A stretch of 39,968 nt of DNA, taken from the NCBI GenBank assembly GCA_011389965.1, contig JAABTF010000020.1:1-39968 (forward strand), written 5' to 3'. Both the position numbers and the translations under genes were made by a program. How positions within the stretch are numbered: position 1 is the stretch's first letter; each line of letters opens with the position of its first letter. The DNA is from Halothiobacillus sp. (GTDB lineage Bacteria; Pseudomonadota; Gammaproteobacteria; Halothiobacillales; Halothiobacillaceae). The notes under the pieces were generated by a model. The model was not told the DNA's origin and ran no database searches. It saw only the letters and a list, made by a program, of their open reading frames with translations. Below are positions 26,227 to 32,932 of the stretch, one piece after another.

Positions 26227-26835
26227 TTAGCCGTGCCTGCGTCCTGATTCGCGCACCGCGCGGTGGACGGTGTAGGTCTTGCCCTGCTTTATCTTCTCGT
26301 AGTTGCCGAACTGTTCCTTCATGGTGCGCTTGAAGTAGTCGCGCAGTCCGTTGATGGACACGAACCACACCTCGCCACCGGGGTTCAGGCCCCGCCACGT
26401 GTCGAACAGCATGATCTGCCACATTTCCTTGCCCACCTTGGCTGGGACATTCGAGTAGAGCCGGTCGAATCGGGTGTCCTTGATCGCCGACAGTCCGTTG
26501 GACAGCCGTGCCTCGGCATTTTTCAGGTGGTTGCGGCCGATATTCCCCTGGGCGTAGTCCACCGCGACGAAGTCCTTGTCGAGGAGTATCACCTGGCTGG
26601 CCGGGCATGCCTTGGCCATGCTGGTGCCGATCGGCCCGTAGCCGCATCCCAGGTCGATGATGGTGCTTCCATCCGGCGGGACCGGGGTGTGCTCCAGCAG
26701 TAGCCGGGTGCCGGCATCGACCTCCCGCGGGGAAAACAGCCCCCAGGTGGAGTGCAGGATCAGGCGCTGACCTAGCAGCTCGCAGTCGATGACCTGATCG
26801 CGACGCAGCGCGTCGATTTGCGGGGCTGTGCTCAT
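26227..26835 (-). CDS. Class I SAM-dependent methyltransferase, RsmC-like fold
   Basis: The 202-residue protein resembles the catalytic "MTS" domain of RsmC-type methyltransferases: WGLFSPREVDAGTRLLLEH, then TIIDLGCGYGPIG for SAM binding, VILLDKDFVAVDYAQGN, and a motif IV position reading SNVPAKVGKE where base methyltransferases have NPP(F/Y). The loss of NPPY suggests a non-nucleobase or altered substrate. The C-terminal region (FGNYEKIKQGKTYTVHRAVR) resembles archaeal/bacterial relatives that end in YRV-type strands. Its ATG overlaps the zur stop by 4 bp, so the two are co-translated. Substrate unknown. Confidence 0.75.
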   Translation of the reverse strand: MSTAPQIDALRRDQVIDCELLGQRLILHSTWGLFSPREVDAGTRLLLEHTPVPPDGSTIIDLGCGYGPIGTSMAKACPASQVILLDKDFVAVDYAQGNIGRNHLKNAEARLSNGLSAIKDTRFDRLYSNVPAKVGKEMWQIMLFDTWRGLNPGGEVWFVSINGLRDYFKRTMKEQFGNYEKIKQGKTYTVHRAVRESGRRHG

Positions 26836-27356
26836 GTGGCGGTTCCGTTGGGCTCGTGGGTGTCACTGTGGTCGAGGGACTCGGCGGCCTTGCGCTCACG
26901 CGCAAGACGGCAGTCGCGGCACAAGCCGCGCAGCTCGATTACCTCCGACCAGGGGGAAAACCCCACGCTGCTGGCGAGTGTCGCCAGGGCGGCATGCACG
27001 GCCTCGCTGCCTTCCTCGCGGATATCGCCGCAGTCATTGCAGATCAGGAGGATGGCCTGGTGGGGATGCTGGGGATGGTCGCAGCCAACAAAGGCATTGA
27101 GGCTCTCGATACGATGTATCAGGCCGTGTTCGAGCAGGAAGTCCAGCGCCCGGTAGACCGTGGGCGGCTTGACTTGTTCTCCGTGCCGCGAGAGCCGCTC
27201 GATCAGATCATAGGCCTTGGTTGCCTCGTGGCTGGACCATATCTCCCGAAGCACCTCCCGGCGGATCGGGGTCAGGCGCGCATTGGCCCGATGGCAGAGT
27301 GTTTCGGCTCGGGCAAGGGCTTGCTCGACGCACTGATGGTGGTTGACACAGGACAT
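26832..27356 (-). CDS. zur: Zinc uptake regulator Zur (Fur family)
   Basis: Zur represses zinc-acquisition genes when Zn2+ is bound. The 174-residue protein matches E. coli Zur (171) in length and pattern: CHRANARLTPIRREVL, then the winged-helix segment KPPTVYRALDFLLEHGLIHRIES, FVGCDHPQHPHQAILLICNDCG, and GLCRDC. Cys106, Cys109, Cys146 and Cys149 form the structural zinc site. The KPPTVYRALDFLLE wording favours Zur over Fur. ATG 27356 is chosen by homology; the frame is open further upstream to 27440. It diverges from the metallo-hydrolase operon across about 260 bp and is coupled downstream to the methyltransferase. Confidence 0.9.
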   Translation of the reverse strand: MSCVNHHQCVEQALARAETLCHRANARLTPIRREVLREIWSSHEATKAYDLIERLSRHGEQVKPPTVYRALDFLLEHGLIHRIESLNAFVGCDHPQHPHQAILLICNDCGDIREEGSEAVHAALATLASSVGFSPWSEVIELRGLCRDCRLARERKAAESLDHSDTHEPNGTAT

Positions 27357-27459
27357 GGTCTGGACGCGGTCGGACGTGGATGGGCATGATAGCGCAGTTG
27401 CTTCCGGGGCAGGGCAGAAGCAAACTTGACTCCGGATCAAGAATGTCGATCGGCCCGGC

Positions 27460-27619: not shown

Positions 27620-28645
27620 ATGGAATACAAGAGTCAGTTCCTGGCGACGCGCCGTCGTTTTCTGCGCAATCTGGGCATGACGGCCGGTCTGTCCGCCGTG
27701 CCCATGTCCTGGGCCTCGAGCGTCTTCGCCCAAGAGGAATTGGTGGTGGAAGGGCCGCCCATGCCGGATATCCCGGCGACCGAGGTCGCGGAGAACGTCT
27801 ACTGCATCGTCTCGCCCTGGGGGTTCCCCTCGGTGGAAAACCAGGGAATGATGAGCAACGTCACCTTCGTCATCACCGAAAAGGGTGTAGTGATCATCGA
27901 TTCCGGCGCGTCGTTGCAGATCGGCCGGATGGCACTGCGGCAGATCCGAAAATTCACGGACAAGCCGATCGCGGCGGTCTTCAATACCCATTATCACGGC
28001 GACCACTGGCTGGGGAATCATGCCTTCGTGCAGGAAAACCCCGACGTGCCGATCTACGCCCACGCGAAGACCACCTCGGCCATCCTCAGCAACCAGGGTG
28101 ACTTCTGGAAAAGCTTGATGGAGCGATCGACGGACAATGCCATTGCCGGCACGGTGGTCACGCCGCCGAACGAGATTGTCGGTCACGGCGACGAGATCGA
28201 CTTTGGCGACACCACCGTGCGCGTACACTTCTATGGCACCGCCCATACGCCGTCGGACATCAGCCTCGAGTTGGTGGAAAAACGCATCGTCCACGTGGGC
28301 GACATTGCCATGAACAACCGCATCGCCTTCATGGACGACGGCAGTTTTCTGGGCACCTTCAAGGCATTCGATGCCCTTGAGAAAAGCGTGCCGGAGGCCT
28401 TTTGGATCCCGGCGCATGGCTTCCCGGCCTACGACCTGATCGAGCACAACCGCCGTCTGTTCGAAGGCATCTACGAGTCCGCCGAGCGCGCCGTCAACGA
28501 GATGGCCAGCCCGGGTGTGGTCAAGGACTACGTGCTCGAAGACGAGCGCGTCAGATATTACGCTCCCTTCGTCAACGGCTTTGACGAAAACATCGGCAAG
28601 TACGCCTCTCTGGCGTTTCTCGAGGCCGAAGCGGCCGCATTCTAG
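27620..28645 (+). CDS. Tat-exported metallo-beta-lactamase-fold hydrolase (SoxH-like)
   Basis: The 341-residue protein carries a twin-arginine signal (TRRRFLRNLG, residues 10-19, then a hydrophobic stretch ending VFA-Q near 37), so it should be folded with metal before export to the periplasm. The mature part is a metallo-beta-lactamase fold with all metal ligands: THYHGDHWLGN (His124, His126, Asp128, His129), GTAHTPSD (His209), GDIAMNN (Asp228) and PAHGFP (His266). Related proteins include SoxH-type hydrolases of sulfur oxidisers and quinoprotein-associated metallohydrolases; no specific substrate is established. ATG 27620 has GGAGGAG upstream; a GTG at 27590 would displace the Tat motif. 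First gene of the sulfur-type cluster, 117 bp before the YeeE/YedE pair. Confidence 0.85.
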   Translation: MEYKSQFLATRRRFLRNLGMTAGLSAVPMSWASSVFAQEELVVEGPPMPDIPATEVAENVYCIVSPWGFPSVENQGMMSNVTFVITEKGVVIIDSGASLQIGRMALRQIRKFTDKPIAAVFNTHYHGDHWLGNHAFVQENPDVPIYAHAKTTSAILSNQGDFWKSLMERSTDNAIAGTVVTPPNEIVGHGDEIDFGDTTVRVHFYGTAHTPSDISLELVEKRIVHVGDIAMNNRIAFMDDGSFLGTFKAFDALEKSVPEAFWIPAHGFPAYDLIEHNRRLFEGIYESAERAVNEMASPGVVKDYVLEDERVRYYAPFVNGFDENIGKYASLAFLEAEAAAF

Positions 28646-28654
28646 ATGGCCCGC

Positions 28655-28719
28655 GGGGCTCAGGTTCGCCTGAGTCCTCGTGAGCATCACAAGCATTCGC
28701 GTCCCCGGGCTGCCCGGGG
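28655..28719 (+). other. Two hairpins between the hydrolase and the transporter genes
   Basis: Stem 1 pairs 28655-28664 with 28669-28678 (ctcagg/cctgag core, TTCG loop, two G-U pairs). Stem 2 pairs 28703-28709 with 28713-28719 (ccccggg/cccgggg, CTG loop). Neither has a following T run, so they look like RNA-processing or stabilising structures instead of a terminator. Confidence 0.5.
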
Positions 28720-28762
28720 TGATGGACTTTTAAACGCTAATTCCAGGAGGTTCAGCAGAGAG

Positions 28763-29275
28763 ATGTCATGCCAAGTCAGGCCGCTATGGCCACCCTTCGT
28801 TGCCGGGATCGTGCTCGGCCTGGTGCTGTTGCTCACGTTCGTTCTGGTGGGTAACGGCATGGGCTCCTCGGGGGCCTTCGCTCGCGTTGCCACCGAGATT
28901 GGACTGCAAGTGGCGCCAGAAGCCACGCGTGAGAACGCCTATCTGGGTGGTATGGCACAAGGCAATCCTCTGGCCGCCTGGATCGTGGTGGCCGCGGTCG
29001 GAACCCTGATTGGCGCCATTCTCGCGTCGGTTTCCTCCGGTCGGTTTCGCGTCAAGGTGGATCGTGGTTCCGGGCGCATTGGGGCGTTTCCCCGACTGCT
29101 GCTCGCCTTGGGCGGCGGCATTCTCGCCGGCTTCGGCTCGCGCTTGGCCGCAGGCTGCACCAGTGGCGTCGGTCTGTCGAATACCGCCATGCTCGGTGTT
29201 GCCGGATTTGTCTTCCTGATCACGTTCTTCATCGTTGGGATCGCGGTCAGCATGCTGATGCGGAGGGTTTGGTAA
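28763..29275 (+). CDS. YeeE/YedE (DUF395) transporter, N-terminal-half protein
   Basis: This 170-residue membrane protein has about four hydrophobic segments and the YeeE/YedE signature GFGSRLAAGCTSGVGLSN, with Cys132 in the position that lines the transport path in the thiosulfate transporter TsuA. E. coli-type TsuA is one ~350-residue chain; here the protein covers half of it. The partner half starts on the next base run, with TAATG overlap at 29273-29277. ATG 28763 follows AGGAGG at 28747 with a long spacing; GCAGAGAG lies closer. Predicted role: import of thiosulfate or another sulfur species together with the next protein. Confidence 0.88.
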   Translation: MSCQVRPLWPPFVAGIVLGLVLLLTFVLVGNGMGSSGAFARVATEIGLQVAPEATRENAYLGGMAQGNPLAAWIVVAAVGTLIGAILASVSSGRFRVKVDRGSGRIGAFPRLLLALGGGILAGFGSRLAAGCTSGVGLSNTAMLGVAGFVFLITFFIVGIAVSMLMRRVW

Positions 29276-29934
29276 TGGATTACGGAACGGCAGGTACCGC
29301 ACTGGCCACCGGCATCCTGTTTGGCTTCGTGCTCGAGCAGGCGGGATTTGGTTCACCGTGCAAACTCACCGCCCAGTTCCGGTTGACGGACTGGTCGGTG
29401 TTCAAGGTCATGTTTTCCGCGATCATCGTCGCGGCTGTCGGCATTTTGCTGCTTCAAGTGAACAACACCTTCGGCGCGCAGGGGTTCTACGTTTCCGAGA
29501 TGTATCTCTGGGGCACGGTGCTCGGGGCGGTGTTGATCGGGGCCGGCTTTGCCATTGGCGGCTACTGTCCTGGCACGTCGGTGGTCGGCCTGGGCAGTGG
29601 CCGTATCGACGGCCTGATCTTCATGCTCGGCATGGTCGTCGGCGTCTGGGCATTTGCCGGGGTCTATGACACGAGCTTTATCCAGACGGTGGTGAACACC
29701 GCGTATGTGTCTGCCAAGACCGTGCCCGAACTGTTCGGTGTTTCTCCCTGGTTGGTCATCGTGGCCATGGTGCTGATGCTGATTGCCGGCTTCGCCGTGG
29801 GCAGGGCGCTCGAACGTCGCACCCAGGGCGTATACACGGCCGAGGACATCACCGAAGGGCATGCACCCGATCAGCCCGACGATCTGTCGCGTGATCTCGG
29901 TCGTGAAGCGACAGCCGAAAACCGTAGCGACTGA
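29275..29934 (+). CDS. YeeE/YedE (DUF395) transporter, C-terminal-half protein
   Basis: The 219-residue protein is the second half-transporter, with five or six membrane helices. Its Cys motifs are EQAGFGSPCKLTAQF (Cys29) and GGYCPGTSVVGLGSGRIDG (Cys98), the two conserved cysteines expected of this half. The C-terminal ~35 residues are hydrophilic (acidic and Arg-containing) and presumably cytoplasmic. Its ATG overlaps the stop of the preceding half (TAATG), so stoichiometric co-translation is likely. A GTG at 29269 would add two residues. Comparable split pairs are known as PmpA/PmpB-type proteins. Confidence 0.88.
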   Translation: MDYGTAGTALATGILFGFVLEQAGFGSPCKLTAQFRLTDWSVFKVMFSAIIVAAVGILLLQVNNTFGAQGFYVSEMYLWGTVLGAVLIGAGFAIGGYCPGTSVVGLGSGRIDGLIFMLGMVVGVWAFAGVYDTSFIQTVVNTAYVSAKTVPELFGVSPWLVIVAMVLMLIAGFAVGRALERRTQGVYTAEDITEGHAPDQPDDLSRDLGREATAENRSD

Positions 29935-29954
29935 ATCGATCACATGATGCACTG

Positions 29955-29973
29955 GCGGGGCGATTTGCCCCGC
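29955..29973 (+). other. Hairpin between transporter and Cys-repeat gene
   Basis: A perfect 7-bp stem gcggggc/gccccgc (29955-29961 with 29967-29973) with a five-base loop lies 21 bp after the transporter stop and 22 bp before the next start. No T tract follows, so it may be a partial terminator or mRNA-stability element. Confidence 0.45.
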
Positions 29974-29995
29974 TAATCGGCAGGAGAAAGAGAGT

Positions 29996-30463
29996 ATGGA
30001 TTCGAAGAAGATTACCCAGCGTGCCCGTGCCCGACGGGCACTCAAGGCATCTATTCCGGCGGTGGCATTCAGCGTGGGGGCCTCCCTGGCAGCCACCACC
30101 ATGGTGCCGTTTTCCGCGGCCTATGCACGTGGTGCCAATCCCTGTGCGCCATCAACCCGCGGAGGCAATCCTTGTGCCCCATCGGCCCGTGGCGGCAACC
30201 CCTGCGCGCCATCAGCCCGCGGCGGCAATCCTTGTGCCCCGTCGGCCCGTGGCGGCAACCCCTGCGCGCCATCAGCCCGCGGCGGCAATCCTTGTGCCCC
30301 ATCGGCCCGCGGCGGCAACCCTTGTGCCCCGTCGGCCCGTGGGGGCAATCCCTGCGCGCCATCAGCTCGCGGCGGCAATCCCTGTGCCCCGTCGGCACGT
30401 GGGGGCAATCCATGTGCCCCGTCGGCCCGGGGGGCGAATCCCTGTGCCCCGGGCGGGGAATAA
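29996..30463 (+). CDS. Exported Cys-repeat protein, eleven ARGGNPCAPS units
   Basis: I do not know a functional name for this 155-residue protein. The start is MDSKKITQRARARR, basic, followed by a hydrophobic segment (SIPAVAFSVGASLAATTMVPF) and a signal-peptidase site AYA-RG near residue 44. Everything after that is eleven tandem 10-residue repeats ARGGNPCAPS, each with exactly one Cys; the first and last units read ARGANPCAP. No aromatic or acidic residue occurs in the repeats. The secreted part would thus be a basic, Gly/Pro/Cys chain with 11 evenly spaced thiols, suited to binding metal or carrying sulfane sulfur, or to forming disulfide or wall-like networks. AGGAGAAAGAG precedes the ATG. 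It sits inside a sulfur-transport cluster. Confidence 0.85.
   Translation: MDSKKITQRARARRALKASIPAVAFSVGASLAATTMVPFSAAYARGANPCAPSTRGGNPCAPSARGGNPCAPSARGGNPCAPSARGGNPCAPSARGGNPCAPSARGGNPCAPSARGGNPCAPSARGGNPCAPSARGGNPCAPSARGANPCAPGGE
30125..30454 (+). repeat. Eleven tandem 30-bp coding repeats with 60-bp super-repeat
   Basis: Eleven in-frame 30-bp units encode the ARGGNPCAPS repeats. In units 2 to 6 two synonymous versions alternate: one uses aat-cct-tgt-gcc, the other aac-ccc-tgc-gcg. Units 3 and 5 are identical, and units 4 and 6 differ by one base. This shows amplification as 60-bp double units, followed by third-position drift at both ends of the array. There is no spacer DNA, so it is not a CRISPR array. 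Confidence 0.95.
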
Positions 30464-30487
30464 GGCCCGGCTTCTGTGATTCAGCCC

Positions 30488-31195
30488 ATGTCTGTGGCGA
30501 GCCAGTCAGGCTCGGTAGTCGAACGCATTCAAGGTGGCTGCCTGCCCGCGGGCTGGGAAGAAGCCGGTCTGGCGGCATGGGATGAATGGGTGGGCATCCA
30601 GCAGGCGCTCGCCAGTGACAATCAGACCGTGTTGACCGAACTGTTCCGTGATCATCGCGACGAAGGGTTTGATTACTGGGCCCATTTTCCGGCCGACGAT
30701 GCCCAGGACGCGAACAGCGGGGCACGCTTCTATTACCACGCCCATGATCCGGCCGAGTGGACTCATGAGGAGCACGGGCATTTTCACTTGTTCATACCCA
30801 GGGAAGGCGAGCCCAATTTTGCGCACGTGGTGGCGTTGTCGATGACGGCGCAGGGTGCCCTGTCGCGGGTTTTTACGACCAATGCCTGGGTGACCGGCGA
30901 GAGCATGCTGCCGGCCGATCGCCTCCTCGAAGGCCTCCCGGAGGCGTTCGAGATCAATCGAGCACGACCGTCGTGGCTGGTGGGACGCTGGCTGACGGCA
31001 GCCGTGGCACTGCTCATGCCTGTGATCGCGACCTTGCTTAAGGCCCGGGACCAGCAACTGCTCGACCCGGGGGGAACATGGCCGAACCCGGCGGTGAGCG
31101 CCGACAGGGATCGTCACATATTGAGTGAGGAGGTGGTGGATATGCCCACCTTGGTTACCGCCTGGTCGCAACGGGCCGCGGCCCTGACGGAATAG
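30488..31195 (+). CDS. DUF6969-like protein with HGHFH motif
   Basis: The product (235 residues) resembles, as far as I can recall, proteins of the uncharacterised DUF6969 group. Visible blocks are ARFYYHAHDP, EEHGHFHLFIP, HVVALSMTAQGALSRVFTTNAWVTGE and PSWLVGRWLTAAVALLMPVIATLL. The cluster of His (HAH, HGHFH) suggests a metal site. No signal peptide is visible, so it is presumably cytoplasmic; one hydrophobic stretch (LTAAVALLMPVIATLL) could be a membrane-associated helix. ATG 30488 is used; a GTG at 30476 is possible. Neither has a clear ribosome site. It follows the Cys-repeat gene by 24 bp and precedes the rhodanese by 83 bp. Confidence 0.7.
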   Translation: MSVASQSGSVVERIQGGCLPAGWEEAGLAAWDEWVGIQQALASDNQTVLTELFRDHRDEGFDYWAHFPADDAQDANSGARFYYHAHDPAEWTHEEHGHFHLFIPREGEPNFAHVVALSMTAQGALSRVFTTNAWVTGESMLPADRLLEGLPEAFEINRARPSWLVGRWLTAAVALLMPVIATLLKARDQQLLDPGGTWPNPAVSADRDRHILSEEVVDMPTLVTAWSQRAAALTE

Positions 31196-31278
31196 TTTTT
31201 TTCTCACCCGTTTCGAGGTGGGTTTTCGGGCGCCCGAGTGACGCCGATTTTTGATGTACGAAGAAGGAGTTGAGTCAT

Positions 31279-32274
31279 ATGAATCTTAAGCGGTTTCTCG
31301 TTGTTCCCGCCGGAGCGGCGGCGCTGGCCGTCGCACAGGGAGCCTGGGCTATGGATGTGCCCGGTCCGGTGGTCGACCCCCAGTGGTTGAATGACAATCT
31401 CGACGAGGTCACGGTTCTTCAGATCACGGGATCGGAAAAGGCGTTCGCGATGGCGCCAAAGTACGAGACCGTTGAGGGCAAGAAGGTGGTTTCCGTGGTT
31501 TCTGGCCACGTTCCCGGCGCGCGGTTCGTCGATTGGGGCAACGTGCGTGTCGAGCGGATGGAGAACGGCAAGAAGGTTGGCAAGCTGATTCCGGCGAAGT
31601 CCGACTTCGAGGGCTTCATGCAATCGTTGGGCGTGGACAAGAATGACAGCGTGGTCATCGTGCCCCTGGGGCTTTCCGGTTCCGATTTCACCAAGGCCAC
31701 TCGCCTGTACTGGCAGATGAAGTATTTCGGCCACGACAACATGGCCCTGCTCGACGGCGGCCTGGCCAACTGGCTGGCGGCGGGTTTCGATGGCGAGACC
31801 GGCAAGCCGGCCGCGATCGATGGTGGCGATTGGACCGCGACCGACGAGCGGGACGAGATCCTGGCAACCTACGCCGAGGTGCGACAGGCCGCCGACAACC
31901 CGGGCAGCATGCAACTTGTCGATGCCCGTCCGCCGAACCAGTACATGGGTGTGTTCAGCAAGTCCAAGACCGTGCCGGGCCACTTGCCGGGTGCGGTCAA
32001 CATGCCCACCTCTCTGTTGGTGCGCGCCGATGGTGCTGCGGCGAACTTCCTGCCGGCCTCGAGTTACGAGTCCATGATGGAATTCAAGGGACTCGATCCG
32101 TCTGGGCCGATGATCACTTACTGCAACTCGGGCAACCTCGCCTCGGGGGTCTGGTTCGTCGCCAGCGAGATCGCGGGTAACGACAACGTCGAGCTTTACG
32201 ACGGCTCCATGAAGGAATACGGCATGTACGCCGACGAGGGCGCCACGTCGGTCAACCCGGCCAATATCTACTGA
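31279..32274 (+). CDS. Periplasmic two-domain rhodanese (thiosulfate sulfurtransferase type)
   Basis: This 331-residue sulfurtransferase has a Sec signal peptide (basic start MNLKRF, hydrophobic core, AWA-M near 24). Two rhodanese domains follow. The C-terminal domain carries the active-site loop YCNSGNLAS with Cys282, and HLPGAVNMP upstream, as in TST/MST enzymes. In the N-terminal domain the corresponding loop reads PLGLSGSD (129-136) with no Cys, so that half is structural as in classical tandem rhodaneses. It would move sulfane sulfur between thiosulfate or persulfides and acceptor thiols in the periplasm. AAGGAG lies 9 bp before ATG 31279. A terminator follows at 32314. Confidence 0.9.
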   Translation: MNLKRFLVVPAGAAALAVAQGAWAMDVPGPVVDPQWLNDNLDEVTVLQITGSEKAFAMAPKYETVEGKKVVSVVSGHVPGARFVDWGNVRVERMENGKKVGKLIPAKSDFEGFMQSLGVDKNDSVVIVPLGLSGSDFTKATRLYWQMKYFGHDNMALLDGGLANWLAAGFDGETGKPAAIDGGDWTATDERDEILATYAEVRQAADNPGSMQLVDARPPNQYMGVFSKSKTVPGHLPGAVNMPTSLLVRADGAAANFLPASSYESMMEFKGLDPSGPMITYCNSGNLASGVWFVASEIAGNDNVELYDGSMKEYGMYADEGATSVNPANIY

Positions 32275-32313
32275 TATCGAACCATTTGCACTGCCCGACT
32301 CGGGCGACATAAG

Positions 32314-32339
32314 CCTCGCCACTCTGGCGGGGTTTTTTT
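32314..32339 (+). terminator. Terminator after the rhodanese gene
   Basis: A 7-bp stem cctcgcc/ggcgggg (32314-32320 with 32326-32332, one G-U pair) with an ACTCT loop is followed by seven T residues. It closes the sulfur-type cluster. Confidence 0.9.
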
Positions 32340-32446: not shown

Positions 32447-32932
32447 ATGACTACATGGGTAGTGGTTGCCGATGACGGGCGGGCACGTTTCCTTGAAGTT
32501 CGTGACAACCCGGGAGCGTATCTGGGTAGCCAGGCCTTTCCCTCCAGCCAGCCGGCGCCAAAGGGTGAGCTTGTCGAGATCACCTCGCTATCGAACTCCT
32601 CTGCACGTCTCGACAATGAGGACTTGGTTACCGACCGTCCCGGCGCCACCAAGGACCGGCAGGGCGAGGCCTTGCATGCCTACGAGCCCGCCAATACGGC
32701 CAAGGATACCGAGGCGAAGCGGTTCGCTCGCGATGTCGTGTCTCGTCTTGATCAGGCTCGGCAGGATGGCAAGATGGACCGCTTCTACCTTTTGGCGGCT
32801 CCCCATTTTCTCGGCGTGCTGCGGGACGAGATGGGCAATCATTTGGCGGAAGTGCTAGTCGAACAGACGGCCAAGGATTTGACGCTTCGCTCGACCGAAG
32901 AGATTCGCGTGGCGTTGCCACATAAGCTTTGA
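32447..32932 (+). CDS. Host attachment family protein (Host_attach, PF10116)
   Basis: The 161-residue protein matches the Host_attach family, first linked to plant-host attachment in Agrobacterium but widespread in free-living Proteobacteria with unknown role. Visible blocks are TTWVVVADDGRARFLEV, LDNEDLVTDRPGATKDR, FARDVVSRLDQARQDGKMDRFYLLAAPHFLGVLRDEM (in parts) and DLTLRSTEEIRVALPHKL. No signal peptide or membrane segment is present. AAGGAGG lies 8 bp before the ATG at 32447, a strong ribosome site. It lies downstream of the rhodanese terminator, so it is a separate transcription unit. Confidence 0.85.
   Translation: MTTWVVVADDGRARFLEVRDNPGAYLGSQAFPSSQPAPKGELVEITSLSNSSARLDNEDLVTDRPGATKDRQGEALHAYEPANTAKDTEAKRFARDVVSRLDQARQDGKMDRFYLLAAPHFLGVLRDEMGNHLAEVLVEQTAKDLTLRSTEEIRVALPHKL

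Follow-up and report, generated by a model that had tools for sequence, protein, structure and literature searches.

Six open reading frames lie side by side on the forward strand of the window, by which we mean the whole 39,968-nucleotide stretch of Halothiobacillus DNA analysed here, and each was verified at the position assigned to it by an earlier sequence-only reading. The first gene (27620..28645) codes for a SoxH-like hydrolase of the metallo-beta-lactamase fold (PF00753, E 7e-25) with a HYHGDH metal motif and a Tat-type signal, TRRRFLRN. Two YeeE/YedE transporter halves follow, a PmpA-type C-terminal half (28763..29275; PF04143 positions 176-308, E 2e-18) and a PmpB-type N-terminal half (29275..29934; PF04143 positions 3-155, E 3e-18). 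Next come a protein with a signal-like N-terminus and 11 NPCAP units at 10-residue spacing (29996..30463), for which neither Pfam nor NCBIfam yielded a match, and a DUF6969 protein (30476..31195; PF22308, E 7e-53) predicted to be a cytoplasmic metalloprotein. The last gene (31270..32274, with the ATG at 31279 a likelier start than 31270) codes for a tandem rhodanese with a Sec-like signal (PF00581, E 1e-19; active loop CNSGNLAS). All signal peptides were judged by eye, without a predictor. The gaps between the six genes are, in order, 117, -1, 61, 12 and 74 bases, and a terminator-like stem with a T run (32311..32335, forward strand) marks the end of the cluster; the scan behind this last feature is weak on its own because it returned 8 such sites in the region versus 4.0 expected from shuffles.

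Matches to DUF6969 occur in 19 of 27 Halothiobacillaceae genomes and were not found in the other eight, some of which are incomplete drafts. Of the family's 19 other DUF6969 loci, thirteen carry zur and all six genes in identical order, four are interrupted by contig ends and agree with the window order in their visible parts, and two are of another type. In the 13 complete loci, zur is divergent and adjoins the cluster (family loci being the ones inspected for zur). Within the host genome, DUF6969 had no match beyond the window's own copy. We also considered whether a second YeeE pair there, on contig C30 (5,474 bases), has the same neighbours, and rejected this candidate, as the contig gave no Cys repeat in the scan and no DUF6969 match.

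The repeat protein is constrained at the coding level. Comparison of its 10 full repeat units (450 codon pairs) gives 214 synonymous codon differences and 18 nonsynonymous ones, and a DNA-level artefact was rejected on this basis. Given the synonymous bias of the repeat codons and the recurrence of the same six-gene order beside zur in family loci, we concluded that the gene set is more than chance.

A four-part core beyond the family

The sequence-only reading took the six families for one unit and named rare co-occurrence in other genomes among the signs that would count against it. A neighbourhood scan shows the genes recurring together far beyond this genome, but the core that is conserved has four parts rather than six. 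We inspected the best 80 of at least 577 DUF6969 relatives, a set rich in closely related members (Azospirillum and Thalassospira, for instance), and in 35 of these 80 loci YeeE lies within 4 kb of DUF6969. A Pro-Cys peptide is present in all 35 (26 detected by script and nine by eye, the latter with two or three motifs), and a rhodanese in 30, although on the opposite strand in two (L085 and L121). Within the same 80 loci, the two transporter halves are kept in some and replaced by a full-length YeeE in 20, and the metallo-hydrolase, which had been counted as a member, was found in only seven. A unit of all six families was rejected on account of those seven loci. The wider conserved core is YeeE/YedE, a small exported or membrane-anchored Pro-Cys-repeat peptide, DUF6969 and rhodanese, with the metallo-hydrolase as an accessory gene.

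We also drew 369 gammaproteobacterial genomes evenly, and 30 of them contain DUF6969. Outside the family, the Cys-repeat peptide adjoins DUF6969 in 22 of the 26 loci of this draw (17 by script, including the GCC-type repeat of L163, and five by eye), with YeeE in 12 and rhodanese in 11. Close relatives of the rhodanese occur in 76 of the 369 genomes, so at least 46 genomes must carry them without DUF6969.

The association of the peptide with DUF6969 is also evident when YeeE loci are compared with one another. The comparison covers 29 of 30 loci, since L199 is a family cluster locus whose contig is cut before DUF6969. The scan, which requires two or more xPC motifs with G, A or S as the next residue within 60 residues, detected the peptide in 9 of 11 YeeE loci with DUF6969, and in the remaining two it was seen when the loci were read. 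In YeeE loci of the same genomes without DUF6969 the result was 0 of 18, a figure valid for that motif rule and 1.5 kb flanks because peptides like CAPCGAPC would be missed. At L180, two of the three scan matches are out of frame.

We considered that co-transcription might reflect family history, with YeeE, rhodanese and peptide acting separately and sharing no single pathway, a reading favoured by the presence of the peptide-DUF6969 pair in loci that lack YeeE. However, YeeE linkage is found to either side of the midpoint root of the DUF6969 tree, with 6 changes of rule-based labels versus 22.6 in shuffles (three rows are unlabelled, and several long branches leave parts of the tree unsure). 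Among the loci of the tree, L123 does not belong to the YeeE group, YeeE is not visible on the cut contigs of L048 and L156, and it lies downstream at L151. Moreover, distant families share the order YeeE-peptide-DUF6969. Separate action seems to us very improbable.

The transporter and the sulfur enzymes

The window transporter consists of adjacent PF04143 halves with one conserved Cys each, which identifies a split YeeE pair. The columns of Cys98 (N-terminal half) and Cys132 (C-terminal half) are occupied by Cys in all 15 rows of halves and all 20 rows with full-length YeeE, window included, and each half has further, non-invariant Cys residues. Single-sequence searches with each half gave no match. 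In having N- and C-terminal halves with one invariant Cys apiece, the pair resembles PmpAB/YedE1E2 as described in passages of PMC11582611 and PMC10812762, a likeness drawn from the domain halves and Cys columns of these loci. Split YedE1E2 is reported to import zero-valent sulfur with one essential Cys per half, and rhodanese genes near yedE1E2 have already been reported (PMC10812762). Unlike those systems, the window halves have a Cys-repeat peptide and DUF6969 as neighbours, and neither of these is mentioned in the same passages of the two papers. SoxT1A is likewise reported to deliver sulfur to the cytoplasm (PMC11582611), and the window transporter shares its Pfam family and a conserved Cys with SoxT and TsuA. 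In contrast to these, the C-terminal half lies far below the full-length NCBIfam TsuA cut-offs, which a half-length protein can hardly reach (39 bits versus 645 for NF041049 and 26.6 versus 400 for NF052577), and no Sox protein is among the eight window proteins scanned.

The window rhodanese has the PF00581 domains and catalytic Cys of its superfamily. Its nearest solved chains are thiosulfate sulfurtransferases, and it scores 98.8 bits versus a cut-off of 250 for 3-mercaptopyruvate sulfurtransferase (NF008557). Active loops begin with CN in 30 of the 31 rhodaneses listed and with CG in one, the loop at L085 being CGSGVAA; in the subfamily alignment the loop is mostly CNTGH versus CNSGNLAS in the window. 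All seven cluster metallo-hydrolases carry an HxHxDH motif, and the window hydrolase remains below the cut-offs for SoxH-related PQQ hydrolases (141.7 versus 280 bits for TIGR04559, its best NCBIfam model, and 128.5 versus 300 bits for TIGR04558).

The Cys-repeat peptide and DUF6969

Across loci the peptides contain from 2 to more than 20 Cys residues. The locus repeat scan gave 52 matches, five of which are out-of-frame or antisense shadows (L046, L052, L071, L073 and L113) and one a distant chance match (L076). Relatives, some of which lack YeeE, have Cys repeats and a SoxA/TsdA-type cytochrome c domain fused in one protein; this assignment holds for six of six proteins of that type with a correct frame, each of which the CCP_MauG model matches more weakly, and an out-of-frame ORF without a family at L161 was left out of the count. 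With YeeE, rhodanese and these fusions as recurrent partners, the sulfur setting originally suggested for the cluster is supported. Further contexts of the repeats, namely an FGE-family protein, cytochrome P460 and DSP phosphatase, indicate no plain sulfur-import role.

No other gene accompanies the peptide as constantly as DUF6969, whether or not a sulfur transporter is encoded nearby. An adjacent Cys peptide was not found in 25 of the best 80 of at least 577 DUF6969 loci, among them those of Azospirillum and its kin, where DUF6969 stands beside MCE/ABC-auxiliary genes, and a profile search located such a peptide elsewhere in 5 of 22 of these peptide-less genomes. DUF6969 is not needed everywhere, since four rhodanese-YeeE loci in genomes without it carry another short Cys peptide, ACAPCGAPC.

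The window DUF6969 protein scores 179.6 bits against PF22308 (gathering cut-off 27) and has no signal peptide visible by eye, which suggests a cytoplasmic location. Conservation across 70 sequences reveals five invariant His residues, and a His/Glu cluster comprises H88, H90, E99, H100, H102, H104 and H117. Its AlphaFold2 model is confident (pLDDT 93.8, pTM 0.91). Neither of two fold searches of the PDB gave a match with an E value of 0.001 or lower, and resemblance to a solved fold was rejected, with TM-scores of at most 0.34 among the matches listed in one of them (50 of 178). A DUF6969 profile likewise matched no PDB chain up to E 1. In our best reading, DUF6969 would be a cytoplasmic metalloenzyme acting on the peptide, perhaps as its maturase.

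An exported Cys-rich peptide paired in one cluster with a His-rich, probably cytoplasmic enzyme candidate recalls the layout of bufferins and MNIO enzymes as given in passages of PMC12452194. By analogy, the peptide could be a copper or zinc buffer or metallophore modified by DUF6969, with rhodanese and YeeE supplying or clearing sulfur so that the thiols of the peptide stay reduced or persulfidated. Divergent zur in the 13 complete family loci and three peptides that are also His-rich (L071, L073 and L113) fit this proposal. However, the window enzyme candidate is DUF6969, and DUF692, the MNIO family, has no match among the six window proteins. The window peptide is also devoid of CxxC pairs, and the partners that recur most strongly are sulfur proteins, zur having been surveyed in family loci. 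The MNIO landscape paper nowhere uses the words DUF6969, rhodanese or YeeE in its main text. We consider metal buffering unlikely.

Another possibility is envelope defence against reactive sulfur or oxidants, wherein the peptide would be a sacrificial thiol sink and the transporter would clear sulfane sulfur. Carriers include Devosia, Mesorhizobium and Arenimonas, none of which is known to us as a sulfur chemolithotroph. YedE1E2 also lowered oxidative stress via GSSH, according to passages of PMC10812762. This reading explains neither the constant DUF6969 partner nor the Cys repeats fused to SoxA/TsdA-type cytochromes, and we regard it as distinctly unlikely.

A proposed route for sulfane sulfur

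Our preferred reading, tentative and a little short of even confidence for the mechanism as a whole, is that the cluster encodes a module that captures sulfane sulfur outside the cytoplasm and imports it. The donor in the periplasm could be, for example, thiosulfate, polysulfide or a thiol persulfide; the exported rhodanese would draw sulfane sulfur from it and load this onto the isolated, Pro-preceded Cys residues of the repeat peptide, which may act as a multi-site thiol buffer or sulfane-sulfur relay. The split YeeE/YedE transporter, of the PmpAB/YedE1E2 type, would then accept the sulfur on its conserved Cys residues and pass it to the cytoplasm. There DUF6969, as a putative metalloenzyme, may serve the peptide as its maturase or dedicated chaperone before it is exported. 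A possible role for the SoxH-like hydrolase, rare elsewhere, is the release of a sulfur substrate. Covalent sulfur on an exposed periplasmic Cys would be a principle shared with SoxYZ, and the fusions of repeats to SoxA/TsdA-type cytochromes in relatives are a second point of likeness. SoxY itself is present in the host genome. Each SoxY arm has one Cys, in contrast to the 2 to more than 20 of the repeat peptides.

A bolder proposal, which we find doubtful on balance, is that DUF6969 is a metal-dependent enzyme of a new class, its fold unmatched in the PDB, that modifies exported repeat peptides at their Pro-Cys motifs, and that the mature peptide is a multi-thiol carrier which receives sulfur from rhodanese or from SoxA/TsdA-type cytochromes and hands it to YeeE transporters. 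If true, a new family of ribosomal peptides would serve sulfur traffic across Pseudomonadota.

The open-access literature searched, which leaves most subscription journals outside, yielded no description of a six-gene or Cys-repeat sulfur cluster, in keeping with the initial impression that the combination is not a described system; it also yielded no paper on DUF6969 and no Halothiobacillus fitness data. The SoxT paper (PMC11582611) describes the import of sulfur into the cytoplasm as poorly understood. A conserved four-part module with a candidate thiol carrier opens this question to direct tests in Halothiobacillus or Guyparkeria. The module also offers a clue to what DUF6969 does, and it draws attention to exported Cys-repeat peptides as a class, with a partner that may carry out new chemistry.

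The window's gene cluster and its conservation in the Halothiobacillaceae

In the window's source genome, a 2.0-Mb draft in 132 contigs, the six genes at positions 27620-32274 all lie on the forward strand, separated by short gaps and followed by a terminator-like stem, which confirms the arrangement described in the sequence-only reading. Pfam and NCBIfam assign a metallo-beta-lactamase-fold hydrolase, two YeeE/YedE transporter halves, a DUF6969 protein (PF22308) and a two-domain rhodanese, and neither database gives a match to the Cys-repeat protein (29996-30463). Visual inspection shows a twin-arginine stretch and an HYHGDH motif in the hydrolase; in the rhodanese it shows a Sec-like signal and a Cys within a CNSGNLAS loop. 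The Cys-repeat protein consists of a signal-like N-terminus and then 11 NPCAP units with a period of exactly 10 residues. When the ten full units are compared with one another, 214 synonymous and 18 non-synonymous differences appear in 450 codon pairs, and thus the repeat is kept at the amino-acid level rather than as DNA alone.

DUF6969 is present in 19 of 27 family genomes. Among 19 family loci compared (the window's own left out), 13 retain zur and all six genes in unchanged order, and four are interrupted by contig ends, with the visible part agreeing with the cluster. The other two (L025 and L026) are of another type, wherein the neighbours of DUF6969 include an apparent HD-GYP protein (by eye) and a Cys-repeat protein that also carries a cytochrome domain; L025 also has a full-length YeeE. 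The Zur-like regulator (26835-27440, reverse strand) is divergent to the cluster, as in 13 of 13 complete family loci. A Host_attach/baeRF family protein (32447-32932) immediately follows the cluster terminator; it is downstream in all seven complete same-genus loci and unmatched in six complete sister-genus loci.

Association of DUF6969 with Cys-repeat peptides and YeeE

A named-genome scan with a DUF6969 alignment returned at least 577 relatives, and the counts in this paragraph refer to the best 80 of these. YeeE was found by profile search within 4 kb of DUF6969 in 35 loci, all 35 of which have an exported or membrane-anchored Pro-Cys-repeat product (hereafter the peptide) and 30 of which also have a rhodanese (on the opposite strand in L085 and L121). 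Cys-repeat genes no more than 2.6 kb away from DUF6969 were detected by script in 46 of 80 loci, short peptides containing 2-3 PC motifs were recognized by eye in nine more, and neither approach revealed an adjacent peptide in 25. The metallo-hydrolase occurs in only seven of 80 loci and is therefore an accessory gene. The proposal of a six-gene sulfur pathway is partly supported: its YeeE/Cys-repeat/DUF6969/rhodanese core is conserved, and we found no description of this core in the literature open to search, whereas the hydrolase is not part of it.

A less biased, even draw of 369 gammaproteobacterial genomes has DUF6969 in 30 genomes (24 of 271 genera). Among 26 loci from this draw outside the window's family, the script detected Cys repeats in 17 (one, L163, of a GCC type), five have a short peptide of 2-4 copies seen by eye, and four have no peptide by either approach. 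Rhodanese is present in 11 of the 26 and YeeE in 12. In 11 of these 12 the peptide is positioned between YeeE and DUF6969, and most of these peptides begin with a membrane-anchor-like segment that ends in DHTRH; the exception is L151, with YeeE downstream. In the named-genome set of 80 loci, peptide types include NPCAPSARGG (Guyparkeria), APCAA/SPCAA (Rhizobiales), NPCAA (Thalassospira and Marinobacter) and HPCEAE (Micavibrio-like MAGs).

As a control, we compared 29 YeeE loci listed from 23 DUF6969-bearing genomes. DUF6969 adjoins YeeE in 11, with the peptide found by scan in nine and on reading the loci in the remaining two; the scan found it in none of the 18 YeeE loci without DUF6969. Two observations count against a strict rule. 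First, in 17 of 22 genomes in which no peptide adjoins DUF6969, a profile search found none elsewhere either. Second, four rhodanese-YeeE loci (L234, L236, L237 and L243) in genomes without DUF6969 encode a different short membrane-anchored Cys peptide, ACAPCGAPC, possibly a second peptide type. The cluster rhodanese has relatives (E up to 1e-40) in 76 of the 369 genomes versus 30 for DUF6969, and so at least 46 have the rhodanese without DUF6969.

Fusions and other neighbours of DUF6969

A connection to sulfur apart from YeeE comes from six proteins near DUF6969, from Marinobacter, a Halothiobacillaceae MAG and other gammaproteobacteria, in which NPC or CAPK repeats are fused to a cytochrome c domain that Pfam matches best to SoxA/TsdA (L051:7104-7967, L099:7193-7870, L102:6363-7070, L152:8760-9449, L025:6457-7194 and, just above the cut-off, L151:5760-6527); CCP_MauG matches the same six more weakly. 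YeeE is nearby in L025 and L151, and none was seen in the other four. Cys repeats are also fused to cytochrome P460 (L056 above the cut-off, L064 below), and NPC repeats stand N-terminal to a DSP-type (BLH-like) phosphatase adjoining DUF6969 (L083:3559-4359 and L050:6695-7417).

Characterised FGE acts on Cys. An FGE-sulfatase cluster protein occurs in ten of the best 80 loci (of at least 577), the Pfam match being shown for L080. DUF6969 adjoins a protein of this family in L094, L096, L109 and L118, where the NPC-repeat gene is divergent, and in L062, L080 and L119, where that gene is elsewhere in the genome. In Azospirillum (L055 and others), DUF6969 sits beside MCE/ABC-auxiliary genes without the peptide; the neighbourhood of L155 is similar but includes an NPC-repeat gene.

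DUF6969 and a candidate sulfur path

Five His residues of DUF6969 (H88, H90, H102, H104 and H117) are invariant in 70 sequences, and H100 (68 of 70) and E99 (69 of 70) nearly so. An AlphaFold2 model from 66 sequences (pLDDT 93.8, pTM 0.91) places the conserved His/Glu residues on or beside consecutive predicted strands, from which we infer a putative metal site; a Foldseek search found no PDB match at E 0.001 or better. Because no signal peptide is visible, DUF6969 is probably cytoplasmic. In the DUF6969 tree, YeeE-linked members fall on either side of the midpoint root, with 6 label changes versus 22.6 in shuffles.

According to one report, a split YedE1E2 imports zero-valent sulfur, each half having one essential Cys, and rhodanese genes lie near yedE1E2 (PMC10812762); another describes sulfur delivery to the cytoplasm by SoxT1A (PMC11582611). 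One Cys is kept per transporter half in our alignments (15 of 15 rows of aligned halves, 20 of 20 with full-length proteins). The main rival explanation is that the peptide buffers metal. Given that the rhodanese is exported and that the peptide carries isolated Cys residues, each after a Pro, the simplest scheme is that sulfur would pass from the rhodanese to the peptide, as intermediate, and then to the YeeE transporter. This carrier step, its direction and the chemistry of DUF6969 are our inference. DUF6969 is the peptide's most constant partner, and it may act on the peptide prior to export.
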